Assembly (NCBI RefSeq): GCF_036002945.1
Contig: NZ_CP108529.1
Span: 682,001-746,000 of the forward strand
Direction: 5' to 3'
From: Streptomyces sp. NBC_01224
Lineage (GTDB): Bacteria; Actinomycetota; Actinomycetes; Streptomycetales; Streptomycetaceae
Length of the DNA stretch: 64,000 bases
Both the position numbers and the translations under genes were made by a program. Under the pieces are notes generated by a model. The model was not told where the DNA came from and did not search any database. It was given only the letters and a program-made list of their open reading frames with translations. The first letter of the stretch is position 1. Each line of letters begins with the position of its first letter. This document shows, piece after piece, positions 27,873 through 49,584 of the stretch.

Positions 27873-29249
27873 ATGCGGAGAACGTGCGTGATCGGAGCTG
27901 GCCCGTCAGGGCTGGCCGCGTCCAAGGTCCTTGCGTCGCGGAACATTCCGTTCGACTGCTACGAAGCCGGATCGGGCATCGGCGGGCTGTGGCGATTCGC
28001 CAACGACAACGGCTTGTCCGGGATCTACGCGTCGCTGCACGCGAACATCTCGAAGGAGAGCATGTCCTTCGCGTCCATGGCCATGCCGGAGAACTACCCG
28101 GTCTTTCCGCATCACAGCCAGGTCCTGTCCTACCTGGAGGACTACGCCACGTCGTTCGATCTCCACCGTCACATCGACGTCGGCGCGGAAGTGACGGCGG
28201 CTCGGCCGCAGCGTGACGGCAGCTGGGAGGTCGCGTATCGGCGCCGTGGCGATCCGGCCGAGAAGTCGCGGCGCTACTCGGAGGTACTGGTTGCCAACGG
28301 ACACCACTGGGACCCGCACTTCCCGGACCCCGCCGTTCCGGGGGCCGAACACTTCGAGGGAACCACGATCCACTCGCACGAGTACCGCGCTCCCCACGCG
28401 TACGCCGGTCAGCGTGTACTGGTGATCGGCATGGGCAACTCCGCGTGCGAGATCGCCGCTGAAATCTCCCGCACGGCGGCGCGGACCCTTCTCTCCGCGC
28501 GCAGCGGTGCGCATGTGTTCCCCAAGATGCTCCTCGGCCGCCCGGCCGACCATCTGGTGTCGAGCCCGCTGTCCGATTTCCCGCTGTTCCTGAAACGTCC
28601 CGCCCTGCGGCTCCTCCTGTGGCTCGCCCGCGGCGGTCCGGCTCGCTACGGGCTTCCCGAACCGGACCGTGAACTCCTCACCACCCACCCCTCCACTTCG
28701 GACGAACTCCTTGTGCAGCTGGCCCGGGGGGCGGTTACCGCGAGGCCCGGCGTCAGCGGCTTCGGCCCCGACACCGCGGTCTTCACGGACGGGACCTGTG
28801 AGCGGGTGGATGCCGTGGTGTACGCAACGGGCTACAAGATCTCCTTCCCCTTTCTGGAACCCGCCGTGTTCGCCGCCCAGGACGGCCGCACCGAGCTCTA
28901 CCTGCGCACCGTTCCTCCTGGAATTTCCGGGCTCTACTTCATGGGTCTCGCGCAACCGTCCGGTGCGGCCTTCCCTCTGCTCGAGTCACAAGCGGAATGG
29001 ATCGCCGACCTGATCGACGGCTCGGCCGCTCTGCCGTCGGCGTCGCACATGACGCGAGCGATCCGGCGCGAATGGCGTCGGCACCGGAAGACCTACGCCC
29101 CCACCTACCGCCACGGGATCGAAATTGACTTCCGCTCCTACCGAAGGGCCCTCAGCCGTGAACGTCGAGCAGGCCGGCGTCGCACACGGAGCACAGCCCC
29201 GGACCTCCCCACCATGGTTGACCTCGCTCCAAGAGCCGACGCGCTGTGA
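27873..29249 (+). CDS. Flavin-containing monooxygenase (FMO-like)
   Basis: The 458-residue protein begins with the FAD-binding GAGPSGLAASKVL. It has the FMO fingerprint FEGTTIHSHEY (FxGxxxHxxxY), the NADPH-binding Rossmann motif VLVIGMGNSACEIA, and the YATGY motif. It uses FAD and NADPH to insert oxygen, classically at soft heteroatoms, in the cytoplasm; Baeyer-Villiger activity is also known in relatives. GAAGGT precedes the ATG. Its 3' end overlaps the WS/DGAT-like gene, so the two are one operon. In the lipid cluster it could oxidise the acyl chain or an attached amine; the substrate is unknown. Confidence 0.9.
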   Translation: MRRTCVIGAGPSGLAASKVLASRNIPFDCYEAGSGIGGLWRFANDNGLSGIYASLHANISKESMSFASMAMPENYPVFPHHSQVLSYLEDYATSFDLHRHIDVGAEVTAARPQRDGSWEVAYRRRGDPAEKSRRYSEVLVANGHHWDPHFPDPAVPGAEHFEGTTIHSHEYRAPHAYAGQRVLVIGMGNSACEIAAEISRTAARTLLSARSGAHVFPKMLLGRPADHLVSSPLSDFPLFLKRPALRLLLWLARGGPARYGLPEPDRELLTTHPSTSDELLVQLARGAVTARPGVSGFGPDTAVFTDGTCERVDAVVYATGYKISFPFLEPAVFAAQDGRTELYLRTVPPGISGLYFMGLAQPSGAAFPLLESQAEWIADLIDGSAALPSASHMTRAIRREWRRHRKTYAPTYRHGIEIDFRSYRRALSRERRAGRRRTRSTAPDLPTMVDLAPRADAL

Positions 29250-30468
29250 CCCGCTCAGTCAGGTTTTCCACCGGATGACCGGCAAGCACCAACTGGCCGT
29301 GGGATGGGCCGTACGGTTCCGCGGAGAGCCCCCCACACCGGACGAACTGCGCCGGCACCTATGGGAGAGGCTGGCCGAACTACCGACGCTGACCCACTGC
29401 ATCCAGGACTTCCCGGCGCCGCGGTTCGTGCCCGCGTCGGACCTCGACCCCCGAAGGCATGTGCGAGGTCTGACCGCGACAGCTCCCCTGAAGCGGTGGC
29501 AGGACTGTGTCCAGGAGGTGCTCGGACGGCCTCTGCCGACCGCTCCCCATCCCCCCTGGGACCTCTGGCTGATCCACGGATACACCGAAACGCCCGAGTA
29601 CGTTCTCGTGTTCCGCATTCACCACGCCATGGAGGACGGCGCGGGGCACCACTACGTATTGCAGACGTTGTTCACCCCGCGAAGGTCGGCCGGATCCGGG
29701 GACGGACATCCGCCGCGTCATGCAGCGGGACGCGTCTCCCTTCGGGGCGTGCTCGGCGTCGTGAACGACATCGCGCACAGTTTCCGGGGCGCCGGCACCT
29801 GGCGCGTGCTGCGCCGGCCCCCGACGGGGAAGCTCTCCGCGGCCTTCTGCACGGTCGGGACACGACGGCTGCTCACCGTTTCCAGAGCTCTCGGCACAGA
29901 CGTCAGCGCGGTCTTCCTGACCGCCCTGACCGGAGCCATGCGCGCCGTCGCTCTGGCCGAGGGGGAGCCTTTGGCACCGCTCCCGCTCTCCTGGCCCCTC
30001 TCGACCCGAACGGGCAGCGAGAGGGGAGCCGTGGGCAACTTCCTCACCATGCTGCGCGTCGAGTTGCCGTGTGACGAACCCTGCCCCCTTCGCCGCCTCT
30101 CCCGTATCACCCGCCAGCTGTCACCCGGGAACACCGAGCGGAGAATCCGGACCTCCCTCGCCCTCATGCGGCTCGCACCGCGTCCCGTGACCCATTGGAC
30201 GCTTCGGCGGCTCATGAGCCCACGCCACGTCCCTGTCGTCGGAACCTATTTCCCCACGGCCATGCCGCAGCCGTCCTTCGGGGACGCTCGGCTGGACGGT
30301 GCGCTCGGGCTGGGTGCCCCTCTGCCGGGTCAGCTCTGCCACCTGACGCTGCTCAGACGCCGAACCGAGTGTGAGCTGTCCGTCGTCCACGACGGAGCTC
30401 TCCCCCAGGGCCGCGACATCCCGCAGCTGTGGCTGGCCGCTCTCCAGGAGCTCGAAGCACGGATCTGA
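29158..30468 (+). CDS. WS/DGAT-like O-acyltransferase (first of two)
   Basis: From GTG 29158 the protein is 436 residues. The catalytic motif HHxxxDG is present as HHAMEDG (His155-His156). A C-terminal PVVGTYFPTAMPQPS and an ECELSVVHDGAL strand follow, as in wax-ester synthase/diacylglycerol acyltransferases of actinobacteria. These enzymes join acyl-CoA to fatty alcohol or diacylglycerol. A TTG at 29125 is a longer alternative; I prefer the GTG preceded by GAAGGGCC. It overlaps the monooxygenase gene by 92 bases, an unusually long overlap that ties the two activities together. It is shorter and more diverged than classic AtfA-like proteins, so the acceptor may differ. Confidence 0.85.
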   Translation: MNVEQAGVAHGAQPRTSPPWLTSLQEPTRCDPLSQVFHRMTGKHQLAVGWAVRFRGEPPTPDELRRHLWERLAELPTLTHCIQDFPAPRFVPASDLDPRRHVRGLTATAPLKRWQDCVQEVLGRPLPTAPHPPWDLWLIHGYTETPEYVLVFRIHHAMEDGAGHHYVLQTLFTPRRSAGSGDGHPPRHAAGRVSLRGVLGVVNDIAHSFRGAGTWRVLRRPPTGKLSAAFCTVGTRRLLTVSRALGTDVSAVFLTALTGAMRAVALAEGEPLAPLPLSWPLSTRTGSERGAVGNFLTMLRVELPCDEPCPLRRLSRITRQLSPGNTERRIRTSLALMRLAPRPVTHWTLRRLMSPRHVPVVGTYFPTAMPQPSFGDARLDGALGLGAPLPGQLCHLTLLRRRTECELSVVHDGALPQGRDIPQLWLAALQELEARI

Positions 30469-30470
30469 CC

Positions 30471-30487: not shown

Positions 30488-30493
30488 ATGCCG

Positions 30494-31810
30494 TCAATTG
30501 GTTGGCACCGGCGCCGAGGCCTCCTCCAACTCGCCCACGGCCTGCTCCCACAGGCTCGGCAGCAGTTCCGCCAGCGGAAGGCCGCGGTCGGTCACGAAGG
30601 ACACCTCGGCCCAGGTGCCGAAGAACGACAGACCCACCCCGAAGAGGTGGCCGGGGAGGAGCAGGGGGAGCAGGACGGTACCGGTCACCTGGGTGGCGCC
30701 CAGGCTGCCCTCGTTGGCCAGCGGCATGGACGTGGCCAAGATGTCGGTCACACGGGGCGAGAACACGCCCCGCATATACCACTCGGTTGGACGGTCTGGC
30801 ATAAATCTGACCAAATCCTGGATGGCCTGCCGCCACGGCTCGCTCCTCAGCCTCGCGGTCGTCGCCATGACGCGCCCCAGCCGCCGCACGGGCAAGTCGT
30901 CGTCCGAAGAACCCCCAGGGCGCCCAGGAGCGGGGTTCACGGGCAGTTCCATCGGCAGGGCGAAGCAGCGGTTGCCCCACGTCTGTTCCTCGTCCCGGCG
31001 CCGGGCGTCGACTGGCACCAGCGCGGAGATCCGCGGCAGCGATACGCCGGACTGTGCCGACCAGGCGGACAACGCCCCGGCAAGAGCGGCGAGATGGGCG
31101 TCGTGAGCCGATCCGCCCTGCACTGTGCCGATCCGCCGGAGACTGTCCAGCGGTACGCGGCCCCGCCACAGCCGCCTGTCGCCCGTCGGCACGAAGGACG
31201 CAGCCGGTCCGCGACTGCGGGTGGCGAGGGCGGCGAGGGCCGCGAACCCGAACTTCGCGGCCAGGCCGAGCGCCAGTCCCGCCCTCCGCGGCAGGTCGGC
31301 GCGGCGGCCTGCCCGGAGCACGGGGCGGGCGGAAGGCTCTCCTTCGCCCAGAAGGACACGAAAGGTCTGTGCTGCGGCCGAGCCGTCCTGGCAGGCGTGG
31401 TGGAACCGGTAGCACACGGCGTACTCGTCGGGCGCGTGGCCGTGGACGAGCCAGATCCCCCAGCGTGCGCCGGGCGGGAACGGCGCGTTGAGCGCCATGT
31501 CTATGGCGGACTCCCACTCCGCCGGACCGTCCGCGACCGCCTCGTGGACATGCCGCTCAACGGTGAAGTCCGCGTCCGGTCGCCACCTGGAGCGTCGGGT
31601 CTCGCCGTCCACGCGGGTCGTGAACATGGGAAGCCGGGCCACGCACATGCCCACGTACGTGCGAAAGTCGGCCAGGCTCGGAGGCGGACCGCTCAGATAC
31701 GCGACACCGCCGGCATCCCAACGGACGTCGGGATGAGTCCGTTCCAGGTTGAGGAACGCGCGGTCTACGGAGTGAGTGCGGTGGTGGGCGGACTGAACGG
31801 ACACGGTCAT
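30494..31810 (-). CDS. WS/DGAT-like O-acyltransferase (second of two)
   Basis: From ATG 31810 (GGAG upstream) the protein is 438 residues. The active-site motif HHACQDG is intact (His137-His138). Other family marks are VPVDARRRDEEQTWGNRCFALPMELPV and an ILATSMPLANEGSLGA segment near the C-terminus. It is transcribed convergently with the first copy, and the two are clearly different in sequence rather than a recent duplication. It may have a different acceptor. A promoter with TATAAA-like sequence lies about 110 bases upstream. Confidence 0.85.
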   Translation of the reverse strand: MTVSVQSAHHRTHSVDRAFLNLERTHPDVRWDAGGVAYLSGPPPSLADFRTYVGMCVARLPMFTTRVDGETRRSRWRPDADFTVERHVHEAVADGPAEWESAIDMALNAPFPPGARWGIWLVHGHAPDEYAVCYRFHHACQDGSAAAQTFRVLLGEGEPSARPVLRAGRRADLPRRAGLALGLAAKFGFAALAALATRSRGPAASFVPTGDRRLWRGRVPLDSLRRIGTVQGGSAHDAHLAALAGALSAWSAQSGVSLPRISALVPVDARRRDEEQTWGNRCFALPMELPVNPAPGRPGGSSDDDLPVRRLGRVMATTARLRSEPWRQAIQDLVRFMPDRPTEWYMRGVFSPRVTDILATSMPLANEGSLGATQVTGTVLLPLLLPGHLFGVGLSFFGTWAEVSFVTDRGLPLAELLPSLWEQAVGELEEASAPVPTN

Positions 31811-32411: not shown

Positions 32412-33524
32412 ATGGTCGTGCACGTCGCCCTCACCGGCGCCACCGGATTCCTCGGGCTCCGTCTCTTACGCCGACTGCTCACCACGCACGCGTCGTTGAC
32501 GGTATTGACCCATGCGAGGTCGGGCGACGCGCTGCACCGCATCACCCGGTTCTTCGAGCTGTCCGGCGATCCGGACACGCTGATCGCGGCACTCCCCAGC
32601 CGGCTGCGAGTGGTGGAGACCGAGCTGGAGCGGCCACGGCTGGGGCTGTCCGGAAACGACTTCCAGAAGCTGGCCGACGGACTCGACGCGATCTGGCACA
32701 GCGCGGGAAGCATCAACCTCGAGGACGACCTCGCACGGCTGCGCCGCATCAACGTCGAAGGCACGCGGCACGTACTTGAGTTGGCCGCCGCCGGACACAG
32801 GAACCCCGCGGTCCACCACGTGAGCACCGCCTTCGTGGCCGGGGCACGGCGCGAAGGTGTGGCATACGAGGACGAGCTGGACGACACGTACGGCTTCGAG
32901 AACGCCTACGAGCGCTCCAAGTACGAGGCGGAGGTCCTGGTCCGTGCGTGGTCTCGGGCACACGACCGCCCAGTCCTGGTCCTGCGGCCGAGCATCCTGG
33001 TCACGGATCTGCCGCCGCACCCGGACCTGCCCTCGCACCCCCTTCAGGTCATCGAACGGATCCTGCAGGACTCGCTGCGCACCGCCGGTCTCGCCGGCCC
33101 CGGAATCCCCGGGTCCAGCCGTCCGGAGATACGGCTGGTGGGCCACCCGCACGGTCATCTGAACCTGATGCCGGTGGAGGACGCGGCCGAGGTCATGGTG
33201 CGGTTGGCCGGCCGGCCGCCCTCGGGGGGAGTCGACACGTACAACGTCGTCCACGGTCACGACGTCCCCGTTTCAACCATCGTCGCGCTCCTGGAACGGC
33301 TTGTGCACCTGAACCTCGACGTTGTCGCCAGGAAGCCCGACGACGCGTCCGTGCTGGAATCCCTGCTGGACTTCTACCCAGGCTTCACGGCCTATCTCAG
33401 TCACCGTCGCCGCTTCGACGACACCCGCGTCCGGACCCTGTTCGGGCCGTCGACAACCGGGTTCCGGGTGGACCTGGACTACCTGTGGTCCGGTCTGGGT
33501 CCGAGGCCGGCGACGGCGGGCTGA
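32412..33524 (+). CDS. Stand-alone SDR-type thioester / fatty-acyl reductase
   Basis: The protein is 370 residues (ATG 32412; GTG 32418 has the better spacing from GGAG). The Rossmann motif VALTGATGFLGLRLLRRLL lies at residues 5-23, and a catalytic Tyr166-Lys170 in YERSK. IWHSAGSINLEDDLARLRRINVEGTRHVLELA and HLNLMPVEDAAEVMVRLAG follow, as in the NAD_binding_4/thioester-reductase group. Such domains release ACP- or CoA-bound chains as aldehydes or alcohols with NADPH. It has no carrier or adenylation domain, so it must take its substrate from elsewhere, most simply the adjacent synthase. Residue 19 is encoded by TTA, implying bldA dependence. It lies 111 bases upstream of the enoyl-reductase gene. 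Confidence 0.85.
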   Translation: MVVHVALTGATGFLGLRLLRRLLTTHASLTVLTHARSGDALHRITRFFELSGDPDTLIAALPSRLRVVETELERPRLGLSGNDFQKLADGLDAIWHSAGSINLEDDLARLRRINVEGTRHVLELAAAGHRNPAVHHVSTAFVAGARREGVAYEDELDDTYGFENAYERSKYEAEVLVRAWSRAHDRPVLVLRPSILVTDLPPHPDLPSHPLQVIERILQDSLRTAGLAGPGIPGSSRPEIRLVGHPHGHLNLMPVEDAAEVMVRLAGRPPSGGVDTYNVVHGHDVPVSTIVALLERLVHLNLDVVARKPDDASVLESLLDFYPGFTAYLSHRRRFDDTRVRTLFGPSTTGFRVDLDYLWSGLGPRPATAG

Positions 33525-33635: not shown

Positions 33636-35219
33636 TTGTCCGTCCTCGCTGGTCCCGACCTCGCCGCCGCGCCCCCGCCGGTCCTCTCCGCCGAAGGGAT
33701 CGCCGCCCGTGCCCGGCGGATCCGGGAACACGTGCACATCGTCACCGACCCGACCGGCCGTGAGCTGGGCCTTGCCACCGGCCCCCGGCCCAGCGGCCCG
33801 GTGCTCGGTACGCTGCCCCCGCTGTATCCCGAGTGGCTCGGCGGGCGCACCTTCTGCGAGGCGCACGGCGTCCGTTTCCCCTACGTGGCGGGCGAGATGG
33901 CGAACGGCATCGCCACCACCCGGATGGTGACCGCGATGGCCCGGGCGGAGATGCTCGGGTTCTTCGGCGCGGGTGGCCTCGGATACGCCGACGTCGAGCG
34001 GGCCGTGCGCACGTTGGCCGACGAGCTGCCGGACAGTCCGAACTGGGGCGTGAACCTCATCCATTCACCGGCCGAGCCCGCGCTGGAGTTCCGCGTCGCC
34101 AAGCTGTTGCTGCGACACGGCGTACCCCGGATCTCGGCCTCGGCGTTCATGGAACTGACCCCTGCCGTCGTGCTGTGCTCGGCCCTGGGACTGCGCCGGG
34201 GTGCCGACGGCCGGATCACCCGGCGTTCCCGGATGCTCGCCAAGGTCTCCCGCCCCGAGGTGGCCCGGCAGTTCCTTTCGCCCGCACCGTCCGAGCTGCT
34301 GCGCCGGCTCGTCGCCCAGGGAGAACTGACCTCCGAGGAAGCCGACCTGGCCGCACGGGTGCCGGTGGCCGAGGACATCACCGTGGAGGCCGACAGCGGC
34401 GGGCACACCGACAACCGCCCACTGGCGGCACTGCTGCCGCGAATCGTCCTCCTGCGCGACGAACTCACCCGCCGGTTCGGCTACCACCAACCGGTAAGGA
34501 TCGGCGCGGCCGGCGGGCTGGGCACGCCGAGCGCGGTGGCCGCCGCGTTCGCGCTCGGCGCCTCCTACGTGGTCATCGGATCGGTGAACCAGACCGCCAC
34601 GGAGGCGGGTCTGTCCGACGAGGCCAAGACGATGCTCTCCGAGGCCGACATCGCGGACGTGACCATGGCACCGGCGGCCGACATGTTCGAGTTGGGCGTC
34701 AAGCTGCAAGTACTCGCCCGCGGGACCATGTTCGCCCAGCGAGCCGCCCGGCTCCACGCGGCGTACCAGGAGCACGGCTCGCTGGAGGAACTCCCGCAGC
34801 CGTTGCGCGCCACCATCGAACGCGACGTGCTGCGCGCCCCGATCGACGAGGTCTGGCAGCGCACACGCGAGTTCTGGCACCAGCGCGACCCGTCGGAGGT
34901 CATTCGCGCGGAGGCCGACCCCAAGCACCGTATGGCGTTGGTCTTCCGCTGGTACCTCGGGAACTCCAGCCGATGGGCGATCACCGGGGAACCGGCACGG
35001 CGTACCGACTACCAGATCTGGTGCGGGCCCGCGATGGGCGCGTTCAACCGGTGGGCCGCGGGCACCTTCCTGGCCGAACCGGCGAACCGGTCCGTGGTGC
35101 AGATCGCGCTCAACCTCCTCGAAGGCGCGGCCGTGCTCACCCGCGCTCACCAACTGCGCACCTACGGCGTCCCGCTGCCGGCTTCGGCGTTCGCCTACAC
35201 ACCGTGCAGGCTCGCATGA
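33636..35219 (+). CDS. pfaD: PfaD-type trans-acting enoyl reductase (PUFA-synthase ER)
   Basis: TTG 33636, with GGAG 9 bases before, gives 527 residues. It has the FMN-dependent 2-nitropropane-dioxygenase-like barrel of PfaD proteins: PYVAGEMANGIATTRMVTAMARAEMLGFFGAGGL, then VEADSGGHTDNRPL, and the phosphate-binding region VRIGAAGGLGTPSAVAAAFALGASYVVIGSVNQTATEAGLS. The C-terminal PfaD extension is also present (YLGNSSRWAITGEPARRTDYQIWCGPAMGAFNRW). It reduces enoyl-ACP intermediates chosen by the partner synthases. The stop overlaps the next ATG (ATGA), so it is translated together with the PfaA-type synthase. The gene order ER first, then two megasynthases, matches the myxobacterial arrangement. 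Confidence 0.92.
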   Translation: MSVLAGPDLAAAPPPVLSAEGIAARARRIREHVHIVTDPTGRELGLATGPRPSGPVLGTLPPLYPEWLGGRTFCEAHGVRFPYVAGEMANGIATTRMVTAMARAEMLGFFGAGGLGYADVERAVRTLADELPDSPNWGVNLIHSPAEPALEFRVAKLLLRHGVPRISASAFMELTPAVVLCSALGLRRGADGRITRRSRMLAKVSRPEVARQFLSPAPSELLRRLVAQGELTSEEADLAARVPVAEDITVEADSGGHTDNRPLAALLPRIVLLRDELTRRFGYHQPVRIGAAGGLGTPSAVAAAFALGASYVVIGSVNQTATEAGLSDEAKTMLSEADIADVTMAPAADMFELGVKLQVLARGTMFAQRAARLHAAYQEHGSLEELPQPLRATIERDVLRAPIDEVWQRTREFWHQRDPSEVIRAEADPKHRMALVFRWYLGNSSRWAITGEPARRTDYQIWCGPAMGAFNRWAAGTFLAEPANRSVVQIALNLLEGAAVLTRAHQLRTYGVPLPASAFAYTPCRLA

Positions 35220-38200: not shown

Positions 38201-41200
38201 CCCGCAGACGAGCCGGTGTCCGCGTACGAACCGGTGCTCGCGTCTGCACCCCTGTCCGTGCCCGCGTCCTCTGCGGGCTCCGACTGGTACGCCATGGTCG
38301 AGAGTGTCCAGCGGCAGACGGCGGAAGCCCACGCGGCCTGTCAGCGCATGCTGATCGACAGTCATATGACGTTCCTGAGGATGACCGAGACGACCCTTTG
38401 CGCGATGCTGGGAGCGCAGGGCGTCAACGGCGTGCTCGATGACACAGCTTCCTCGTCACCACCGCTGCTCCCCCAGCGGTCACCGTCACTGCTCCCGGAG
38501 CAGTCGTCGGCCGCGCGGACACAGGCCGTGCCGCAGCCCCCGGCGCCCGTGCTGTTCGAGGCCCCCACGCCTGCGGTGCTCGCCGGGCCGCCCGCCCGAC
38601 TGCCTTCCCCCGGACCGTCGACCGCCGAGGACCGGGCCCCGGACACCCATCCGGACATCACGCCGGCGGTGGCCCTGTCGGCGCAGGCACTCGAAGAACT
38701 GCTGCTCTCGGTGGTGGCCCGGCTCACCGGCTATCCGACGGACATGCTCAACGTGGACATGGATCTGGAAGCGGATCTGGGAGTCGACTCGATCAAGCGC
38801 GTCGAGATCCTGTCCGCCGTACGTCAGCGGACGGGCGACGCGCCGGCGGAGAGCATCGCCCAGCTCGGCAGACTCCGCACCCTGCGCGAAATCGTCGACG
38901 CACTCACCGCGGGCACCGGCCCGGTGTCTCCCGGGGCTGCAGCACCGGACTCCCTGGCCGCGGCTGCCGCCCCGGGCACCACGGAGGTTGCCGCAGTCCC
39001 GGAGATCCCGGCCATGCGCACCGAGCCGCCGCAGCGCGCGGCATTGACCAGGCTGGTCCCGCGTACGGCGGAATCACCCGCGTCCGGCCTGGCCGTGGCT
39101 GCCCTCGGGGACGGGCCGCTCGTGGTGACCGGAGGGGACAGTGACGGCATCGACGACGCCGGAATCGCCGGTCTCGTGGCGCGGAAGCTGACCGCACACG
39201 GCATCGACGCCACCGCTGTGACGGACGTGCCGGAGAACGCGCACGGTGTTGTCCACCTCGGCGGGCTGACCGGGACCGGCTCGCCGGACGAGGCACGGGA
39301 AGTCCACCGTTCGGCGTTCCACGCGGCTCGTTCGGTCGCGGCGCGGATGGCCTCACGGGGCGGGCTGTTCGTGACCGTGCAGGACACCGGTGGTGACTTC
39401 GGGCTCGACGGCCGCCGGCCCGATCGCGCGTGGCTCGGCGGGATCGCCGGTCTGGCCAGGACCGCGGCGAAGGAGTGGCCGGGAGCTTCGGTCAAGGCGA
39501 TCGACTGCGAGGCCGGCGGGCGCGACCTCGACACGGTCGCCGAGGCGATCGTGCGTGAACTCCTCGAAGGCGGCCCCGAGACGGAGGTCGGCCTTCGCGC
39601 GGACGGTACCCGCACCATCCCACGGGCGGTCCCCGCACCTCTGACACCCGGCGGCGCGACGAGGATCACTTCGGAGTCGGTGATCGTGGCCACCGGAGGG
39701 GCACGCGGGGTGACCGCCGCCGCGCTGCTGGACCTGGCCAGGACACACCGGCCCCGGATCGTGCTGCTCGGCCGGACCGAACCGGCCACCGAGACGCCCG
39801 GGCTGGAGTCGGCCGCCGACGAACCCGCGCTCACCCGTCTGCTCGCCGCGCGCTCCGCCGGGGACGCGGATGGATCCTCCCCGGCCGAGATCGCCGTCCG
39901 GGCCCGGGAGATCCTGGCGGCTCGCGAGGTACGGGCGACGCTGGCGGCGCTGACGGCGGCGGGCTCCGCCGCCCGCTACGTCCCGGTCGACACAAGGGAT
40001 GGCGAGTCGCTCGCCGCCGCGCTGCGCGACGTACGCGAATCGTGGGGTCCGATCACCGGCATCGTGCACGGCGCCGGGGTACTGGCCGACAAGCGGATCG
40101 CCGACAAGACCGACGAGCAGTTCGACCGGGTGATGTCCACCAAGGTGGACGGCCTGCGCGCGCTGCTGGCCGCGACGGCGGACGATCCACTCGACGTGAT
40201 CTGCCTGTTCTCCTCGGTGGCCGCCGTGTTCGGCAACGAGGGACAGAGCGACTACGCCATGGCCAATGAGGTGCTCAATCACGTGGCGTCCGCCGAGCGG
40301 TCCCGCCGCCCCGACTGCCTGGTGCGTTCCGTGGCCTGGGGCCCGTGGCACGGCGGAATGGTCACCCCCGCCCTGGCCGGGCACTTCGGCCGCGCCGGCG
40401 TCGCGCTCATCCCCCTGGAGCAGGGCGCCGCCGCCTTCTCGGCCGAGTTGGACGGTACGGTCGGCGAACCGCGCGTCGTCATCGCGGCCGGCGACGATCC
40501 GGCAGCCATGACGCCTGTCGGCGATCCTCGCCCGGCGCAGGTGCTGATCCGGGAGAGCAGCCATCCGCAGCTGTCCGACCACCAGATCGCCGGAGTTCCC
40601 GTACTGCCCGTGGCGATGGTCCTGAACTGGTTCACCGGCGCGGCCGCCGCCTGGCGGCCTGCCACCGACCGGATCGTCCTGCGCGACGTCCGGGTGTACA
40701 AGAAGCTCGTCCTGCCGCGACTCGCCGGCGACGGCCACCGGATCACCGTGCACGGCCGCCGCGGCACGGTCGGTGCGCCCTCGGACCTGGAGGTGGAACT
40801 GCGCGGCAAGGACGGCGTTGCGCACTTCCGGGCCGTGCTGGAGTTCGAGGCCGTGGAACCCGATCCGGCCGTGTGGATCACCCCGGACGGGCTGGAGCCG
40901 CCGACCCGCCCTGAGGTCTACGACGGACGGACCCTGTTCCACGGCCCCCGGTTCCAGTCCATCCGCACCCTGCACGGTGTCTCCGGCCGCGGAGCCGAGG
41001 CGACCGTTGTGGGCCTGCACGCGCTGGACTGGGCGGGTGACCACTGGCCGCTCGACCCGGCCGCCGTGGACGGCGCGCTCCAACTCGCCCTGATCTGGGC
41101 GGAGAACGTACTCGGTGAGGCGACGCTGCCCATGGCAGTCGCGGAGTGCAGGGTGCACCGGCGCGGCCCGGCACCCGAGACCATGCGGTGCGTGGTTCGG

Positions 41201-41311
41201 GCGCGGAAGACGCACGAGACGGGAGCACGGTGCGACGTCGCGCTGATCGACCCCGACGCGTCCGTGCGCATCGAACTGCTCGGCGTGGAACTCGTCCGCC
41301 GTCCCTCCTGA
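35216..41311 (+). CDS. pfaA: PfaA-like iterative polyketide/PUFA synthase, KS-MAT-ACP-KR-DH with a single ACP
   Basis: ATG 35216 (overlapping the pfaD stop) gives 2031 residues. KS (28-460) has Cys226 in DAACASS, His361 in EAHGTGT and His402 in IGHTKCA. MAT (about 588-880) has FPGQGAQYVGMG and Ser689 in GHSFGE. A helical linker lies at about 1023-1065. One ACP (about 1155-1235) carries Ser1192 in LGVDSIKRVE. KR (about 1485-1740) has ATGGARGVT and Tyr1680 in SDYAMANE. A PKS-type DH (about 1780-2025) has His1789 in SDHQIAGVPVLP and Asp1952 in DGALQ. All catalytic residues are intact. PUFA synthases usually carry several tandem ACPs; one is unusual and should lower throughput or change chain control. 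The C-terminal DH matches myxobacterial Pfa2. It needs phosphopantetheinylation by an enzyme outside the window. Confidence 0.92.
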   Translation: MTGPGAPETSAAFVRHQGEPVFATHRQVPVAVVGIGALVPGATDAAGYWRIVVGGQDLITEVPASRWLVEDHYDPDPAAPDKTYARRGAFLPEVDFDPLAYGVPPANLPATDTAQLLALMVADQVLADAGGLARMDRDRVGVVLGAAALQLLPHMYGRAHRPLWLKALRESGLAEAEAQAACDRITEHFTPWQESTFPGLLGNVVAGRIANRFDLHGTNHTTDAACASSLAALSTAVGELALGRSDLVISGGVDTGNDIGMFLCFSKTPALSPTGDCRPFSEAADGTMLGEAVVMYALKRLSDAERDGDRIHAVIRGIGTSSDGRSTAIYAPLPDGQARALRRAYEEAGYGPDTVELVEAHGTGTKAGDAAELTSLRTVFGASRRTDQQWCAIGSVKSQIGHTKCAAGAAGLLKAVMSLHHKVLPPTIKVDRPSPATTASDSPFYVNTQARPWVRSPDHPRRASVSSFGFGGSNFHVTLEEYVPSDASGGTAWRHRSAPTELVLFSASSPSALQASAFDGDRSLAAIARESHSTFSPTDPVRLAVVATDTEDLAEKFAAATALIRQRPDTAFSTPTGIQYATGTPAPGRIGFLFPGQGAQYVGMGADLAMLSPDAQAVWDRLGSAGFDGCPLHRVVFPPPAFTDEERAARRSRLAATEWAQPALAVHSLALLEVARGLGLRPDCAAGHSFGELVALHCAGVLDAESLVALARKRGTLMRDAAVAPGAMLAVGADRERVAAVLAGIGLDDVWPANHNAPRQVVLSGTTEAIAVVEKAFAAEDVDTRRLNTSTAFHSPLVAPAGERLSAFLSGIPLTEPRIEVYGNADAAPYPAPPDEVRRRLARQLASPVLFHDQIEAMYAAGVRTFVEVGAGTTLTGLVGQILGDREHAAIPLDRPGRSGVSSLHTALGRLAVRGIPLDYDHLWAPYGPPGAPAKERKPRMTVKISGANYGQPYPPAGGAAVLPAPSEPARPDSPNPPGQQAESVPVPEAPVAPTPADEPVSAYEPVLASAPLSVPASSAGSDWYAMVESVQRQTAEAHAACQRMLIDSHMTFLRMTETTLCAMLGAQGVNGVLDDTASSSPPLLPQRSPSLLPEQSSAARTQAVPQPPAPVLFEAPTPAVLAGPPARLPSPGPSTAEDRAPDTHPDITPAVALSAQALEELLLSVVARLTGYPTDMLNVDMDLEADLGVDSIKRVEILSAVRQRTGDAPAESIAQLGRLRTLREIVDALTAGTGPVSPGAAAPDSLAAAAAPGTTEVAAVPEIPAMRTEPPQRAALTRLVPRTAESPASGLAVAALGDGPLVVTGGDSDGIDDAGIAGLVARKLTAHGIDATAVTDVPENAHGVVHLGGLTGTGSPDEAREVHRSAFHAARSVAARMASRGGLFVTVQDTGGDFGLDGRRPDRAWLGGIAGLARTAAKEWPGASVKAIDCEAGGRDLDTVAEAIVRELLEGGPETEVGLRADGTRTIPRAVPAPLTPGGATRITSESVIVATGGARGVTAAALLDLARTHRPRIVLLGRTEPATETPGLESAADEPALTRLLAARSAGDADGSSPAEIAVRAREILAAREVRATLAALTAAGSAARYVPVDTRDGESLAAALRDVRESWGPITGIVHGAGVLADKRIADKTDEQFDRVMSTKVDGLRALLAATADDPLDVICLFSSVAAVFGNEGQSDYAMANEVLNHVASAERSRRPDCLVRSVAWGPWHGGMVTPALAGHFGRAGVALIPLEQGAAAFSAELDGTVGEPRVVIAAGDDPAAMTPVGDPRPAQVLIRESSHPQLSDHQIAGVPVLPVAMVLNWFTGAAAAWRPATDRIVLRDVRVYKKLVLPRLAGDGHRITVHGRRGTVGAPSDLEVELRGKDGVAHFRAVLEFEAVEPDPAVWITPDGLEPPTRPEVYDGRTLFHGPRFQSIRTLHGVSGRGAEATVVGLHALDWAGDHWPLDPAAVDGALQLALIWAENVLGEATLPMAVAECRVHRRGPAPETMRCVVRARKTHETGARCDVALIDPDASVRIELLGVELVRRPS

Positions 41312-41399: not shown

Positions 41400-44300
41400 A
41401 TGGGATTCGAACCGATCGCCATCGTCGGCCGGGGCTGTGTGCTGCCCGACGCACTCGATCCGGACACGTTCTGGAACAACATCGCCGCGGGCCGGAACAG
41501 CCTGTCGGCCGTTCCGGACGGCCGATGGCGGTTGCCGCACCACTGGGCCATGGGCTCGGTGGACGAGCACCTGGACCGCACCTGGACCGATGTCGGCGGG
41601 TACGTACGGGGGTTCGAGTCCGCCTTCGACCCGAGCGGCTTCCGCATCGCCCCGGAGCGGATCCTGGCACTGGACCCGCTCTTCCAGTGGGTCATGTACG
41701 GTGCCCGGCAAGCACTCACGGAGGCCGGACGTGAGGGTCCGCTGCCGCGCGCGGGCCTGGTGCTGGGCAACCTGTCCTTTCCCACGGCCGCGGGATCGGC
41801 CTTCGCCGAACACGTATGGCTGTCCGCCCAGCCCCCCTCCCTGCGCGACGCCCTGCTGACGGGCGTACGCCGGAGGCGGCCCGACGCGCGCAACCGCTTC
41901 TCGTCCGGGCTCCCGGCCCATCTCGCGGCCCAGGCGCTCGGGCTCGGCGCGGGCGCCTGGGCGCTCGACGCCGCCTGTGCCTCGTCGCTGTACGCGATCA
42001 AGCTGGCGTGTGACCGCCTGCACGATGGCACGGCGGACCTGATGGTGGCCGGCGCGGTCAACCGGGTCGACAACCTCTATCTGCACGTGGGGTTCTGCGG
42101 TCTGTCCGCGGTGAGCCGGACCGGCCGCAGCCGCCCCTTCCACCAGGACGCCGACGGGCTGATGCACGGCGAAGGCGCCGGATTCGTCGCTCTGGTGCGA
42201 CTGTCGGAGGCGCTCACCGCCGACCTGCCCGTTCTCGGGGTGATCCGCGGTATCGGGCTGTCCAACGACGGGCGCGGCGGCGGGCTGCTCAGCCCGGCGG
42301 AGGAGGGCCAGGTACGTGCCATGCGCCTGGCCTACGCCACGGCGGACATCGCGCCGGAGACCGTCTCGCTCGTCGAGTGCCACGCGACGGGAACTCCGCT
42401 CGGGGATGCCGTGGAAGCGCGCAGCATGGCCCGGATCTATGCTGCCGGAGACGATGTGCCCATCGGTTCGGCGAAGTCCAACGTCGGGCACCTGCTGGCT
42501 TCGGCGGGCGTGGCCGGGCTGCTGAAGGTGCTTGGCGCCATGCGCACGGGAATCCGTCCGGCGACGCTCGGCGCGGAGCGTCCGATCACCGGACTGCGCG
42601 GCACACCGCTACGGGTGCTGACCGCACCGGAGCCATGGCCGGGGCCGCGCAGGGCAGCCGTCAGCGCCTTCGGTTTCGGTGGCACCAACGCCCATCTGAT
42701 CGTGGACTTCCCGGACGGCGACCCGGTCTTCGCCGTGCCCGCGTCGGCCCGCGCGGTACCGGACGCCCTGGTTCCGGACTCCGCGACGCTCACGTACTCC
42801 GGCTCCCTCGCCCCGGAATCCTCCGACCGCCCGACGCCCGGCGTCCCGGTGCCGGAATCGCAGGGGGGCCGCACGCCGGTGGCCATCGTCGCCCTCGGCG
42901 CCCGGGTCGGCGACGGAACCAGCGCCGAGGACTTCCGCCGCGCGGTGCTCGGCGGCGAACGGCGGGGTCCCGCCACGGAGATCGCCGTGGAACTGACGGA
43001 CCTGTCCTTCCCGCCGCTGGCGCTGGAGCAGACCTTGCCCCAGCAGCTCCTGGTGTTCGAGGCTGCCCGCGAGGCCGTACGGGCTGTCTCGCTGCCCCGC
43101 GAGCGGACCATGGTGGTCATCGGGATGGGCGTCGACCCCGGGGTGGCACGCTCCGGTGCCCGCTGGCGGCTTCCCCACTGGCTGGAGCACGCCGGACCGA
43201 CCGCTGTCGCAGAGTCGCCGGCCCACGCCCAGGACGCCTTCGCACCGCCCATGACCGCGGATCGGGTGGTCGGCAGCCTGCCCAACCTCATGGCGAACCG
43301 GATCAGCACCCAGCTCGATCTGGCGGGGCCGGGTTTCGCAGTGTCGGCGGAAGAGGCATCCGGCCTGGTGGCGCTGGACCTTGCGGCACGGGCCGTCCGG
43401 GCGGGCGAGGCGGACGCCGCGCTCGTCGGTGCCGCCGACCTGTCCTGCGAGCCGGTCCATCGGGCCGCCCTGCGTGAACTCGGCCATGAGGCCGATCCGG
43501 GTGACGCCGCCGTGGTCCTGGTCCTCAAGCCTCTGGACGCCGCCCGCAGGGACGGCGACACCGTGATCGCCTTGCTCGACGAGGAGTCCACCGGCGAACC
43601 CGACATGGTCATCGGTGACGGTTCCGACGCCGCGTTCGACCCTGCGTCGACCTTCGGCCGTGCCCACGCCGCCCAGGGGTTGGTCTCCGTCGCGGTCGCG
43701 GCGACCGCCCTTCAGCACCGCGCGGTGCCGCGCCCGGACGAGCCCGCGGACACCGGCGCGTCTCCGCGGACCGCGGCTGCCGTCGTGTCACCGCTGGAGG
43801 GGCCCCCCGCCCGGGCACGGCTGCGCGCGGGTGACGCCCGGCCCTGGCTGCGGGGGCCGGCTCCGCGTCTGCACCTCTTCTCCGGGGGCGACCGCCGAGA
43901 AGTGCTGGCCGCGCTGGAGTCCGGTGTGGAGTCCTCCGACGGCCCGGCCCGGCTGGCACTCGTGATTCAGGACGACGTCGAGCTGCCGGGCCGTAAGGAG
44001 GCCGCCCGACGCTGGCTGACGGAGGGCGGGATCCGACCGGCCGACGTGCTGTACCGGGACGAGCCGGTGAAGGGGCAGACCGCCTTCGTGTACACCAACG
44101 GCTCGGCCTCCTACCCGGGCATGGGCCACGCGCTGATGCTCGCGCTGCCCTCGCTCGGCGAGACCGTCAGGGCAGAGCATGGGCCCGTCGGCGCCCGGGT
44201 GCGGTCCCGATCGGCAGCGGGGGTGCTCGACCAGATCTGGGGCGCCGCCAAGCTCGCGACCGTCCACACCGTACTCACCCGGCAGCTGCTCGGTCTGCGG

Positions 44301-47300
44301 CCGGACGCCGCCATCGGATACTCCTCCGGCGAGTCGGCTGCCCTGATGGCTCTGGGTGCCTGGCAGGACGCCGCGGGGCTGTACGAAGCCACCAGGGACA
44401 GCGGTCTGTTCACGACGGAACTCACCGGTGAACTCCGGGCGGTCCGGCGTGCATGGGAACGTGTGGGCGTCCAGGGCTCCCGCTGGTCGAGCTACCTGGT
44501 CAGCGCGCCCCTCAACACGGTTCGTACCGAACTCGCGGCCGAACCCGCAGTCCACCTGATGGCGGTGAACGCACCCGGCGTATGCGTCATCGGCGGCGAG
44601 TCGCGGGCGTGCGCGGCCGTCGTGGCCCGGCTCGGCGCCGGCCGCGCGATCGCGATCGACTACGACATGGCCGCCCACGCACCGGAGTTGGCCGACGTTC
44701 GCGACAAGTGGCGCCAGGTCCACCACCGTCCCACCACCGAAGTGCCCGGAGTACGGTTCTACAGCGGAGCCACCGGGCAGTCGTACTCCCCGACGCCCGA
44801 GCGAGTCGCCGAAGCACTGACCGCGCAGGGCCTCGACACCATCGACTTCGCGGGTACCGTCGAACAGGCGTGGACCGATGGGGTCCGGATCTTCGTCGAG
44901 CACGGGCCGCGCAGCCTGTGCACCGGCTGGATCAAGCGCGTGCTCGGCGACCGGGACCACGTGGCCGTCGCTCTGGACGCCCCGCACGACCAGGGGCTGC
45001 GGCAGCTGTGTCTCGCGGTGGCCGAACTCGTCGTCGCCGGGGTGCCGGTGCGTGCCCACGAACTCTTCGCACAGCTCGGGAGGGCTGCCGTGGACCTCAC
45101 CACCCCCGGTCCCACCGTCACGGTGACCGTGCCCGGGACTCCGCGTCTGACGTCCCCGGAGGCGTCCGCGGTGACCATGCCCAGGGCCCCCGAGCTGGCA
45201 CCGGTGCCGGACCTGGAGGCCGACCGGCCCGGCACACCGGCAGTCACCGCGTCCTCCCCCGGTGCCGTGCGGCGACCGCTGCCGGAGGGACAGCCGACCG
45301 GTCGGCCCTCGGAGCCACAACCGGCGAGCGTCCGTGCCCTGGTCGCCCGGCAGAGCCGCCGGGCGATCGCGCTCCACCAGGAGATCACGGCCAGGCACAC
45401 CGAGGCCCATCAGCGATTCCTGCGGATGTCGGCCCAGGCGGTCACCTTGCTGACACGCGCCGGGGCAGGGGGCAGGACGCCCGCGTTCCCCGTACAGATG
45501 CCCGGTCCCACGACGCCGCGCCCGGTCGCTCCCACCGTTGCCGGGCCGCTGCCGTCCCCACGACCCGAGTACGTTCCCGCCACTCGGCCGAAGCCTGTAC
45601 CGAGGTCTCCACACGGACCGCTGCCAGGACCGAAGTTCGACCGCGCCCAGCTCGAACATCTCGCCTCCCGGCAGATCTCCGCGCTCTTCGGCGCACGGTT
45701 CGCCGCACAGGACGCGTACGCGGTGCAGACCCGGATGCCCGCACCGCCCATGCTGCTCGCCGACCGCGTCACCGGCATCGACGCGGTACCGGCGGCGCTC
45801 GTCGAGCCCGGACCAGTACACGCCGACGGAACGATCTGGACCGAGACCGACGTCCGCCCCGACAGCTGGTATCTCGATGCCACGGGCCGCATGCCGACCG
45901 GTCTGATGGTCGAGGCCGGCCAGGCGGACCTGCTTCTGCTCAGTTGGCTCGGCGTCGACCTCCTCAATCGGGGCGAGCGCGTCTACCGGCTGCTCGGCTG
46001 CGAGTTGACGTTCCACGGCAGCCCGCCCGAAGCGGGGGACACGCTGCGCTACGAGATCCACATCGACGGCCACGCCGAACACGACGGCGTCCGGCTTTTC
46101 TTCTTCCGCTACGACTGCCACGTGGACGGCGAACTCCGGCTCAGCGTCCGCAAGGGCCGGGCCGGGTTCTTCACCCCGGCCGAACTCGGCGGCAGCGGTG
46201 GTGTGCGGTGGGACCCTGCCGACTGCCGGCCCGGCGACGCACTGCCGCTCGACCCGCCCGCGGTGCGCTGCGAGCTGACCGGCTTCACCGCGGAGCGGGT
46301 ACGGGCCCTGGCGGAGGGGCGGCCCGCGGACTGTTTCGGTCCCGGCTGGGAGACGACCGCGGCCCACGTCCGCTCCCCCGGGATCGGCGGCGGTCGGCTG
46401 CGTCTGCTGCACGAGGTCACCGTGTTCGACCCGTCCGGAGGACCGTGGGGCCGCGGCTACCTGCGCGCCGAGACGCCCGTCTCGCCGGACGACTGGTTCT
46501 TCGCGGGGCACTTCAAGAACGATCCCTGCATGCCTGGCACCCTGATGCTCCAGGGCGGCCTCCAGGCGATGGCGTTCTACCTGGCGGCCATGGGCTTCAC
46601 CGTGGACAGGGACGGATGGCGCTTCGAGCCCGTCGACAACGCCCCCTGCTCGGCCAGTTGCCGTGGCCAGGTGACCCCGGACAGCCACCGGATCGTGTAC
46701 GAGGTGTTCGTGCGCGGTGTCTCGTCCGGGCCGCTGCCGACGCTGCACGCCGATGTCCTGGGAACCGTGGACGGGGTCAAGGCGTTCCATGGCAGTGACG
46801 TGACGTTGCGGCTGGTGCCCGACTGGCCGCTGTCGCACTGGCGGCGGTCGGGCCCGTCCACCGTACAGACCGGAGGTGCTCCGGTGCCGCTCGCCACGCT
46901 CGGCGGGCTGGCCGGACACCGCGAGAACGGACCGGTGGCCGCGGTGGACGGATTCTCCTTCGGCTACGCCTCCTTACTGGCGTGCGCGTGGGGCCGGCCG
47001 AGTGAGGCGTTCGGCGCCGCGTACGAGCCCTTCGACGGCACCCGCAAGGTCGCACGCCTGCCCGGCCCCCCGTACCACTTCATGAGCCGTATCGCCGGGG
47101 TGGACGGCCCGCAGGGCGGCATGCGGGAGGGCAGCAGCGTCGTCGCCGAATACGACGTGCCCGCCCTGGCCTGGTATTTCGAGCAGAGCGGCGGTCATAC
47201 GATGCCGTTCGCCGTCCTCCTGGAGACCGCGCTGCAACCGTGCGGGTGGCTGGCCTCGTACGTAGGCAGCGCGCTGACCACCGGCACGGACCTGTTGTTC

Positions 47301-48113
47301 CGCAACCTCGACGGCTCGGGAACCGTCACCGGCGAGGTCACCCCCGCGACCCGGACGGTACGCACCCACGCCGAACTGACCCGTATCTCCCGCAGCGGTG
47401 ACATGATCATCGAGTCGTTCGAGGTCCGGTGCACGGCCGACGGTAAACCGCTCTTCGAGCTGTCCACGGTGTTCGGATACTTCCCGCCCTCGTCCTTCGA
47501 CAACCAGGCCGGCCTCGCGGTGTCGGCGCAGGACCGGGCCCGTCTCGACGAACCCTGCAGTCACACCGTCGACCTCACCGCCCGGCCCGCCCGCTACTGC
47601 GCAGGCCCGGTGCGCCTGCCCGGCCCCATGCTTCTGATGCTCGACCGCATCACCGGTTACTGGCCGGACGCGGGCAGCGCGGGGCTCGGCCGACTGCGGT
47701 CGGAGAAGGACGTGGATGCGGGCGAGTGGTTCTTCAGGGCTCATTTCTTCCAGGACCCGGTGCAGCCGGGCTCATTGGGTATCGAGGCCATGTGCCAGCT
47801 GCTCCAGTACTACCTGCTCGAACGCGGCATGACCGCGGGTGTCCCGCATCCCCGGTTCGAGCCGGTGCTACCCGACCGCGAGATTACCTGGACGTACCGC
47901 GGTCAGATCACCCCGGCCAACCGGCTGATCAGGGTGGAGATGGAGATCCTGGAGGCCGGCAGGGACGCACGAGGCCCCTATGCGACCGCGGAGGCGTCGT
48001 TGTGGGGCGACGACACGTGCATCTATCTCGTACGCGGGCTGGGCATGCGCGTGGTGCCCGGAGACGGTCCAGCGGCATTCCGGGCGGGGGACCTACCAGT
48101 ACTCCAGATGTAG
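41400..48113 (+). CDS. pfaC: PfaC-like synthase, KS-CLF-AT-DH-DH
   Basis: The protein is 2237 residues, starting 88 bases after the previous gene. KS (about 5-445) has Cys193, His328 and His364. A chain-length-factor-like domain (about 490-790) has Glu652 where KS has Cys. AT (about 880-1220) has Ser975 in GYSSGESAAL. A linker with helices (about 1313-1350) follows, then two FabA-like double-hotdog DH regions (about 1425-1810 and 1830-2225). Their active His residues are His1704 (AGHFKNDPCMPG) and His2115 (RAHFFQDPVQPG). FabA-like DHs create and isomerise double bonds, giving skipped unsaturation in PUFAs. Order and content match myxobacterial Pfa3 except that the terminal AGPAT domain is absent. 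Residue 1859 is encoded by TTA, so full-length product should depend on bldA. The chain length and unsaturation pattern cannot be predicted from sequence. Confidence 0.92.
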   Translation: MGFEPIAIVGRGCVLPDALDPDTFWNNIAAGRNSLSAVPDGRWRLPHHWAMGSVDEHLDRTWTDVGGYVRGFESAFDPSGFRIAPERILALDPLFQWVMYGARQALTEAGREGPLPRAGLVLGNLSFPTAAGSAFAEHVWLSAQPPSLRDALLTGVRRRRPDARNRFSSGLPAHLAAQALGLGAGAWALDAACASSLYAIKLACDRLHDGTADLMVAGAVNRVDNLYLHVGFCGLSAVSRTGRSRPFHQDADGLMHGEGAGFVALVRLSEALTADLPVLGVIRGIGLSNDGRGGGLLSPAEEGQVRAMRLAYATADIAPETVSLVECHATGTPLGDAVEARSMARIYAAGDDVPIGSAKSNVGHLLASAGVAGLLKVLGAMRTGIRPATLGAERPITGLRGTPLRVLTAPEPWPGPRRAAVSAFGFGGTNAHLIVDFPDGDPVFAVPASARAVPDALVPDSATLTYSGSLAPESSDRPTPGVPVPESQGGRTPVAIVALGARVGDGTSAEDFRRAVLGGERRGPATEIAVELTDLSFPPLALEQTLPQQLLVFEAAREAVRAVSLPRERTMVVIGMGVDPGVARSGARWRLPHWLEHAGPTAVAESPAHAQDAFAPPMTADRVVGSLPNLMANRISTQLDLAGPGFAVSAEEASGLVALDLAARAVRAGEADAALVGAADLSCEPVHRAALRELGHEADPGDAAVVLVLKPLDAARRDGDTVIALLDEESTGEPDMVIGDGSDAAFDPASTFGRAHAAQGLVSVAVAATALQHRAVPRPDEPADTGASPRTAAAVVSPLEGPPARARLRAGDARPWLRGPAPRLHLFSGGDRREVLAALESGVESSDGPARLALVIQDDVELPGRKEAARRWLTEGGIRPADVLYRDEPVKGQTAFVYTNGSASYPGMGHALMLALPSLGETVRAEHGPVGARVRSRSAAGVLDQIWGAAKLATVHTVLTRQLLGLRPDAAIGYSSGESAALMALGAWQDAAGLYEATRDSGLFTTELTGELRAVRRAWERVGVQGSRWSSYLVSAPLNTVRTELAAEPAVHLMAVNAPGVCVIGGESRACAAVVARLGAGRAIAIDYDMAAHAPELADVRDKWRQVHHRPTTEVPGVRFYSGATGQSYSPTPERVAEALTAQGLDTIDFAGTVEQAWTDGVRIFVEHGPRSLCTGWIKRVLGDRDHVAVALDAPHDQGLRQLCLAVAELVVAGVPVRAHELFAQLGRAAVDLTTPGPTVTVTVPGTPRLTSPEASAVTMPRAPELAPVPDLEADRPGTPAVTASSPGAVRRPLPEGQPTGRPSEPQPASVRALVARQSRRAIALHQEITARHTEAHQRFLRMSAQAVTLLTRAGAGGRTPAFPVQMPGPTTPRPVAPTVAGPLPSPRPEYVPATRPKPVPRSPHGPLPGPKFDRAQLEHLASRQISALFGARFAAQDAYAVQTRMPAPPMLLADRVTGIDAVPAALVEPGPVHADGTIWTETDVRPDSWYLDATGRMPTGLMVEAGQADLLLLSWLGVDLLNRGERVYRLLGCELTFHGSPPEAGDTLRYEIHIDGHAEHDGVRLFFFRYDCHVDGELRLSVRKGRAGFFTPAELGGSGGVRWDPADCRPGDALPLDPPAVRCELTGFTAERVRALAEGRPADCFGPGWETTAAHVRSPGIGGGRLRLLHEVTVFDPSGGPWGRGYLRAETPVSPDDWFFAGHFKNDPCMPGTLMLQGGLQAMAFYLAAMGFTVDRDGWRFEPVDNAPCSASCRGQVTPDSHRIVYEVFVRGVSSGPLPTLHADVLGTVDGVKAFHGSDVTLRLVPDWPLSHWRRSGPSTVQTGGAPVPLATLGGLAGHRENGPVAAVDGFSFGYASLLACAWGRPSEAFGAAYEPFDGTRKVARLPGPPYHFMSRIAGVDGPQGGMREGSSVVAEYDVPALAWYFEQSGGHTMPFAVLLETALQPCGWLASYVGSALTTGTDLLFRNLDGSGTVTGEVTPATRTVRTHAELTRISRSGDMIIESFEVRCTADGKPLFELSTVFGYFPPSSFDNQAGLAVSAQDRARLDEPCSHTVDLTARPARYCAGPVRLPGPMLLMLDRITGYWPDAGSAGLGRLRSEKDVDAGEWFFRAHFFQDPVQPGSLGIEAMCQLLQYYLLERGMTAGVPHPRFEPVLPDREITWTYRGQITPANRLIRVEMEILEAGRDARGPYATAEASLWGDDTCIYLVRGLGMRVVPGDGPAAFRAGDLPVLQM

Positions 48114-49579: not shown

Positions 49580-49584
49580 CACGC

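Follow-up and report, generated by a model that had tools for sequence, protein, structure and literature searches.

The gene cluster described here lies in a 64,000-nucleotide stretch of the genome of Streptomyces sp. NBC_01224 (the window, meaning the whole of the DNA analysed) and encodes a synthase of the polyunsaturated fatty acid (PUFA) type together with a stand-alone protein of the thioester reductase family (TR). Several related systems have been described, and the papers on them are cited here for the passages that concern each point. In the myxobacterial Pfa1-Pfa3 systems of Aetherobacter and Minicystis, the genes pfa1-pfa3 encode PfaD, PfaA and PfaC, PfaA has a PKS-type dehydratase (DH) at its end, PfaC has the order KS-CLF-AT-DH, the phosphopantetheinyl transferase (PPTase) is encoded elsewhere, and an acyltransferase domain, AGPAT, has been proposed to end the chain (PMC8436480). 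The Hgl system of Anabaena (Type F) unites a secondary lipid synthase, a thioester reductase and an ABC exporter to furnish an envelope lipid, the heterocyst glycolipid (PMC3098273, PMC8064123); its HglB protein carries ACP and thioester-reductase domains, the enzyme activity of which is unexplored, and DevBCA is needed for export (PMC8064123, PMC11804610). Type L synthases, which include that of S. coelicolor, have pfaD at the 5′ end and, in Streptomyces, a fused pfaBC gene (PMC3098273). Finally, the polyamino lipid zeamines are made by a secondary lipid synthase in which PUFA-synthase-like machinery is combined with aminotransferase, KR and TR domains (PMC13291983).

The window cluster shares the pfaD-pfaA-pfaC gene order, the PKS-type DH at the end of PfaA and the distant PPTase with Pfa1-Pfa3. 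As the original prediction had it, the domain order is that of the myxobacterial proteins minus AGPAT, which was borne out by the Pfam domains and the order given in PMC8436480. The kinds and order of domains agree, but the tandem ACPs of the myxobacterial PfaA are reduced to one, the acid residue of the first FabA-type dehydratase (DH1) is replaced by Gln, and genes for TR, an acyltransferase (AT2) and an ABC transporter are attached. Compared with Hgl, TR is free-standing, with no ACP domain in a profile scan and thus no HglB-type ACP-TER fusion, the synthase is of the PfaD-PfaA-PfaC type, and acyltransferases are found where the Hgl pathway adds a sugar to the lipid. The Type L synthases are written KS-CLF-DH2-AT, whereas the window PfaC reads KS-CLF-AT-DH1-DH2, and TR, AT2 and ABC genes go without mention in the relevant parts of PMC3098273. 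Unlike the zeamine type, no aminotransferase was seen among the scanned cluster genes, and the window contains no PKS-NRPS partner. An open-access literature search returned no recognised description of a TR-PfaD-PfaA-PfaC family.

The predicted product of the cluster is an exported lipid, either a fatty alcohol or a wax-like compound, and not one of the ordinary omega-3 fatty acids. We give about an even chance to a secondary-lipid synthase whose chain is released reductively, then esterified and exported, yielding a product of that kind. The genome measures 10.0 Mb in two contigs, the window has a G+C content of 69.7%, and the named relatives closest to it in PfaD are Streptomyces. Genes were called with a home-made codon-usage finder, so that start positions may be off, and were assigned to families by profile scans (Pfam, and NCBIfam/TIGR with their cut-offs). 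All the genes originally claimed (a flavin-containing monooxygenase (FMO), two WS/DGAT-like acyltransferases, the reductase, PfaD, PfaA and PfaC) were recovered in this way; the single ACP of PfaA and the ABC pair upstream had been overlooked. The features are as follows:

26070..26918, minus strand: ABC-transporter membrane protein (permease), adjoining the ABC ATPase gene; ABC2_membrane_3 at E 0.04, no Pfam match over the cut-off
26915..27529, minus strand: ABC-transporter ATPase; PF00005, E 5e-28; beside the permease gene in related loci
27873..29249, plus strand: FMO, accessory; PF00743, E 2e-84
29275..30468, plus strand: AT1, WS/DGAT-like acyltransferase, accessory; PF03007, E 1e-10; HHAMEDG at 116-122
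30494..31810, minus strand: AT2, WS/DGAT-like acyltransferase, conserved; PF03007, E 5e-8; HHACQDG at 137-143
32412..33524, plus strand: TR, stand-alone thioester-reductase-family protein; PF07993, E 4e-47; TGATGFLG at 8-15, YERSK at 166-170
33636..35219, plus strand: PfaD-type enoyl reductase; TIGR02814, 666 bits against a cut-off of 449
35216..41311, plus strand: PfaA, KS-MAT-ACP (one)-KR-PKS-type DH; TIGR02813, 1220 bits against a cut-off of 1010; Pfam domains
41400..48113, plus strand: PfaC, fused PfaB-PfaC type, KS-CLF-AT-DH1-DH2 without AGPAT; Pfam KS-type, AT and FabA domains
46506..46553, plus strand: active site of DH1 in PfaC (residues 1703-1718), with His1704 retained and Gln1718 in place of the acid

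TR is consistently linked to PfaD

A genome scan with PfaD gave 275 candidates, of which the best 80 loci were kept; carriers of the cluster include strains of S. griseus, S. tendae and S. halstedii. The PfaD tree held 79 of 81 rows, L108, for which the gene call was too short, and L112, in which PfaD was not called, being left out. The window fell in a clade of 39 rows (support 100/99), 35 of which carried TR; the remaining four (L059, L064, L069 and L070) are contigs that start at PfaD and were excluded from the counts of testable loci. TR lay immediately upstream of PfaD in the window, as it did in 34/34 clade relatives with a contig reaching that far. Outside the clade, TR was found at 47–56% identity in eight rows and was absent from the others; neighbours of less than 45% identity were scored as no TR (L098, 29%; L123, 39%).

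The same linkage was seen when 392 evenly sampled genomes of the genus were scanned (counts include the window genome). The best five, three and six candidates per genome were scored for TR, PfaD and the permease, respectively, and neighbouring genes were recognised by eye from their coordinates. TR at ≥54% identity was present in 24 genomes, directly upstream of PfaD in 24/24. PfaD at ≥74% identity occurred in 20 genomes (∼5%), each of which also bore TR; at 61–69% it was found in 12 places, four with TR, and at ≤54% in 71 places, none with TR. TR-like proteins of 35–45% identity in 29 other genomes were on other contigs or megabases from PfaD, or belonged to genomes in which PfaD had no match. 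The distances of TR and PfaD were correlated (Spearman 0.92 for 903 non-independent pairs from 43 rows). The linkage is far beyond chance, and the conserved adjacency in the clade and in the genome sample rules out TR as a chance neighbour. Among plasmid records, matches were all below 60% identity. In two genomes from another family of the same order (G045 and G047; loci L036-L038), PfaD was 61–63% identical but had different neighbours and a different gene order.

TR carries the NAD(P)-binding motif, YxxSK and the fold of reductase (R) domains. The first fold match of its model (pLDDT 88) was the terminal reductase of MxaA (4u7w), followed by rice DPW and other R domains, and the MxaA R domain was also the closest solved protein by sequence. 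TR thus resembles a thioester reductase by predicted fold and motifs, although it does not rank as a full member of TIGR01746.

Acyltransferases, monooxygenase and exporter

In the PfaD tree, clade A comprised the window and 31 loci (support 95/79) and clade B seven loci (99/89). Testable counts for AT2, the ABC genes and FMO leave out the four truncated contigs named above as well as L063, L068, L084 and L091. AT2 was found in 22 of the 23 testable clade-A loci (missing in L088). The original prediction had named the absence of the reductase and acyltransferase genes from homologous clusters as grounds for rejecting it; TR was instead found in 34/34 and AT2 in 22/23. The HHxxxDG motif is present in both AT1 and AT2 of the window; across 23 AT2 sequences its second His, Asp and Gly were invariant, and among relatives the first His of AT2 varied. 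Both proteins reach the PF03007 cut-off. The AT2 model first matched the WS/DGAT structures 6chj and 7nxg and then condensation domains, and a sequence search of the PDB gave no significant match for AT2 (7nxg, E 0.05). AT2 would thus appear to resemble WS/DGAT enzymes in fold and Pfam family, without being filed under TIGR02946. An AT2-like gene (34%) follows PfaC in locus L073.

No AT1 orthologue was found in the 80 related loci beyond a weak AT2 match (26–32%), and AT1 was rejected as a core gene. Among 5.8 billion proteins searched, 16 protein clusters came close, one of them its own and the other 15 at 64–70% identity; the named ones were all Streptomyces, and 5/16 (own included) were apparently on contigs with a TR cluster. 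These homologues, which dispose of AT1 as a gene of this window alone, indicate that it is confined to a sub-lineage. An FMO entry of Streptomyces niveus (P0177, 485 aa) also matches AT1 (55% identity over 43%), which suggests a fused or misread FMO-AT1 pair.

FMO was present in 10/23 testable clade-A loci (in L066 by tblastn only); the oxidation step once suggested for it is no more than a possibility. Its best solved relative was 8z12 (E 7e-104), on which a literature search found no paper, followed by the ancestral FMO5 6sek. It carries FxGxxxHxxxY, presumably tied to heteroatom oxidation. This motif and the FMO-family relatives, along with the TR-bearing synthase of the zeamines (PMC13291983), are what would be expected if the aldehyde released by TR were aminated by an enzyme encoded elsewhere, FMO oxidised the nitrogen and AT2 acylated the amine or hydroxylamine, giving a zeamine-like, nitrogen-bearing lipid. 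However, no aminotransferase occurred among the scanned cluster genes (genes farther out in the related loci were scanned in part), FMO is missing from 13 of the 23 testable clade-A loci, and we regard such a product as unlikely.

The ABC pair (26070-27529) lies outside the coordinates first given for the cluster (27873-48113) but is part of it, since close permease homologues were found only in cluster-bearing genomes. Homologues of ≥79% identity occurred in 15/392 genomes (own included), 15/15 of which had the PfaD/TR cluster; in 14 the gene lay within 6 kb of TR, and in the fifteenth (G158) it was on another contig, while TR lay at the end of a contig. Homologues beyond these 15 were ≤69% identical in the sample. 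In clade A, the permease was present in 16 of the 23 testable loci. Beside the ABC genes, 25399-25920 encodes a 173-residue protein with no Pfam family (best E 0.12) that is conserved in 15 related loci, two of which (L058 and L089) lack the ABC pair.

On the other side of the cluster, no gene family following PfaC was common to more than four of 18 loci, and a conserved downstream gene was rejected on that count. This bears on whether TR and the synthase belong to a larger hybrid pathway with genes elsewhere, for which the local cluster would make a lipid donor only. Some Streptomyces pfa-type genes do cooperate with PKS-NRPS genes (PMC13291983), but beyond the lack of a shared downstream family, no further gene longer than 900 aa was called in the window besides the synthase genes, and we hold a hybrid pathway to be decidedly improbable. 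After PfaC, on the other strand (48768-50046), lies an ArsR-type regulator gene flanked by two AHSA1/SRPBCC genes, of which no homologues were found at the matching place in 18 related loci.

Synthase domains

Catalytic motifs were found in PfaA for KS (DAACASS 223-229, EAHGTGT 359-365, KSQIGH 397-402), MAT (GHSFGE 687-692), ACP (GVDSIKR 1189-1195), KR (YAMAN 1680-1684) and the PKS-type DH (HQIAGVPVLP 1789-1798, DGALQ 1952-1956), and in PfaC for KS (DAACASS 190-196, ECHATGT 326-332, KSNVGH 359-364), AT (GYSSGE 973-978, His at 1093) and DH2 (2114-2129, His and acid retained). The CLF of PfaC has Glu at the position of the KS Cys. The ACP motif of PfaA was single in the window and in 31/31 window-clade proteins read through that region; elsewhere, two were counted in L097 and three to six in L104, L108, L109, L115, L118 and L129.

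The window PfaC stops 26 residues past its FabA match, with no C-terminal AGPAT. Among 20 relatives in which the end of PfaC was read, AGPAT was found in three, L109 (by PF01553) and L108 and L115 (at 52% identity), which are respectively a myxobacterial record, a betaproteobacterial one and a metagenome-assembled one from a myxobacterium, with three, five and four ACPs; it was found in none of the 17 actinobacterial PfaC proteins read.

The best solved relative of the PfaC AT was PfaB of Shewanella baltica (9ry8, E 2e-24). PfaB is reported to be a long-chain acyltransferase with an essential Tyr preceding the Ser (PMC12895367), and this Tyr-Ser signature is seen in the window (GYSSGE) and likewise in 29/29 window-clade loci read. 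By the Tyr before the catalytic Ser and by closest match the domain is of the PfaB type; its score against the curated TIGR02816 was 78 bits, below the cut-off of 144.

Proposed pathway and its alternatives

Building on the gene content, motifs, conserved neighbourhood and loss of the DH1 acid, all directly observed, the following steps may be proposed from what is known of the families. A long, partly unsaturated chain is likely to be assembled on the single ACP of PfaA, with the MAT of PfaA loading malonyl, KS and KS-CLF condensing, and KR, the PKS-type DH, DH2 and PfaD processing the beta position; the PfaB-type AT of PfaC would handle the late acyl chain. TR would release the chain reductively as an aldehyde or alcohol, AT2 would esterify it and the ABC transporter would export the product, FMO and AT1 being optional tailoring steps. 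A PPTase would act in trans, five PF01648 matches being present in the genome and none inside the window. Since DH1 is without its acid, the double-bond pattern would probably differ from those produced by the known synthases of omega-3 PUFA. A lipid that is released, esterified and exported is favoured because the synthase, TR and exporter would have the roles they have in heterocyst glycolipid formation, and because WS/DGAT-like acyltransferases are present. As far as conservation can tell, reductive release is well supported, with TR in every testable clade relative and the fold match to the MxaA R domain. Esterification is less so: AT2 is conserved in clade A and its model matches WS/DGAT structures first, but AT1 is not conserved and clade B is without an AT2 orthologue.

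A number of observations weigh against this pathway. TR scored 141 bits against TIGR01746 (E 6e-41), below the cut-off of 213, its fold matches include sugar epimerases of the same superfamily, and its sequence is compatible with two- as well as four-electron reduction. On the whole PfaD tree TR required eight changes, some of them arising only from truncated contigs counted as TR-less. TR and AGPAT are both absent from many related actinobacterial clusters; TR is therefore no simple stand-in for AGPAT, and a one-for-one replacement is out. Both acyltransferases scored ∼115 bits against TIGR02946, below its cut-off of 310, the AT2 model was of middling quality (pLDDT 70, TM 0.61 to WS/DGAT), and the lack of AT1 orthologues and of FMO noted above tells against the pathway as originally predicted. 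The ABC permease (≥79%) was lacking in 5/20 genomes with PfaD at ≥74% identity. In the seven clade-B loci TR was present with no AT2 orthologue upstream, L080 having a gene of 297 residues that matches AT1 weakly (26%). All seven clade-B PfaC proteins continue for 382–398 residues (in L081 the tail is split off by a stop); the one extra stretch scanned gave a PS-DH match just above the cut-off. In two of the seven (L079 and L081, the same as L151 and L150) an MMPL-like protein of 752–755 residues, recognised by eye, follows, and related synthases perhaps use two different exporters, the ABC pair in clade A and the MMPL-like protein in these two clusters. The PfaB-type AT of PfaC, moreover, could unload the chain by itself.

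DH1 departs from the original prediction. FabA catalysis requires a His and an Asp 14 residues further on. The original prediction took all catalytic residues to be intact and the FabA-like dehydratases to build an unsaturated chain; DH2 has its His and acid, but in DH1 the acid position (His+14) is Gln in the window and in 20/20 window-clade proteins read (17 of the 18 loci L136-L153, L149 giving no read, plus L164-L166; L094, L098 and L128 gave none either). Elsewhere, the residue was Asp in L108 and L115, Glu in L102, L107, L109, L111, L122, L124, L125 and L127, Gln in L104 and L129, and His in L101 and L119, and the AGPAT-bearing relatives thus keep Asp or Glu. Five proteobacterial loci read had Asp or Glu (one, L184, is L108 again), and 12 others gave no read. 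The DH2 acid was Glu in the window and in 21/21 clade members read, and Gln in L102. Gln in DH1 is no hallmark of TR clusters, given that the multi-ACP L104 and L129 also have it and that TR-bearing L119 has His and TR-bearing L122, L124 and L125 have Glu. L104 and L129 (the same as L180 and L174; Lentzea and Amycolatopsis) have five to six ACPs and no TR.

The loss of the DH1 acid also bears on whether the product is ordinary PUFA or a triacylglycerol rich in PUFA, in which case the chain would be released by the PfaB-type AT, AT1 and AT2 would act as DGATs and TR would be a side enzyme. PfaA and PfaD do exceed the cut-offs of curated PUFA families, and the pfa-type cluster of S. coelicolor (SCO0124-0129), which may or may not belong to the TR family, is listed as an eicosapentaenoic acid (EPA) cluster in print (PMC5932044, PMC7324645, PMC6414726, PMC2374992). 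When TR of L092 was used as the query, 120 of 189 proteins were listed and none of these bore the name S. coelicolor, though clustering at 90% identity hides the names of members. However, PUFA was undemonstrated in S. coelicolor as of 2011 (PMC3098273). The D/E of FabA-type dehydratases has been called essential, its change to Ala abolished complementation, and the Thraustochytrium synthase with a mutated DH1 made no DHA, though the thraustochytrid DH1 may differ from the bacterial one (PMC9667614). With TR in every testable clade member and one ACP in PfaA besides, an ordinary PUFA product seems improbable.

A possible envelope lipid

A more specific form of the pathway with reductive release and esterification, offered tentatively, is a dedicated Streptomyces envelope-lipid pathway. 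In it, a PUFA synthase would have been adapted to reductive release, with TR fixed, AGPAT absent, a single ACP and one of the FabA-type dehydratases inactive, and would make an unsaturated fatty alcohol ester for export, which may be deposited during sporulation. By analogy, such a layer might be what Gram-positive bacteria have in place of the glycolipid layer of heterocysts and akinetes. Transcription of the S. coelicolor cluster takes place around sporulation (PMC2374992); if the cluster belongs to the TR family, its product may be a lipid of spores or aerial hyphae. The constant presence of TR, the linkage of the exporter and the loss of the DH1 acid are reasons to expect a product other than EPA in the TR-PfaD family, and concrete leads towards finding it.

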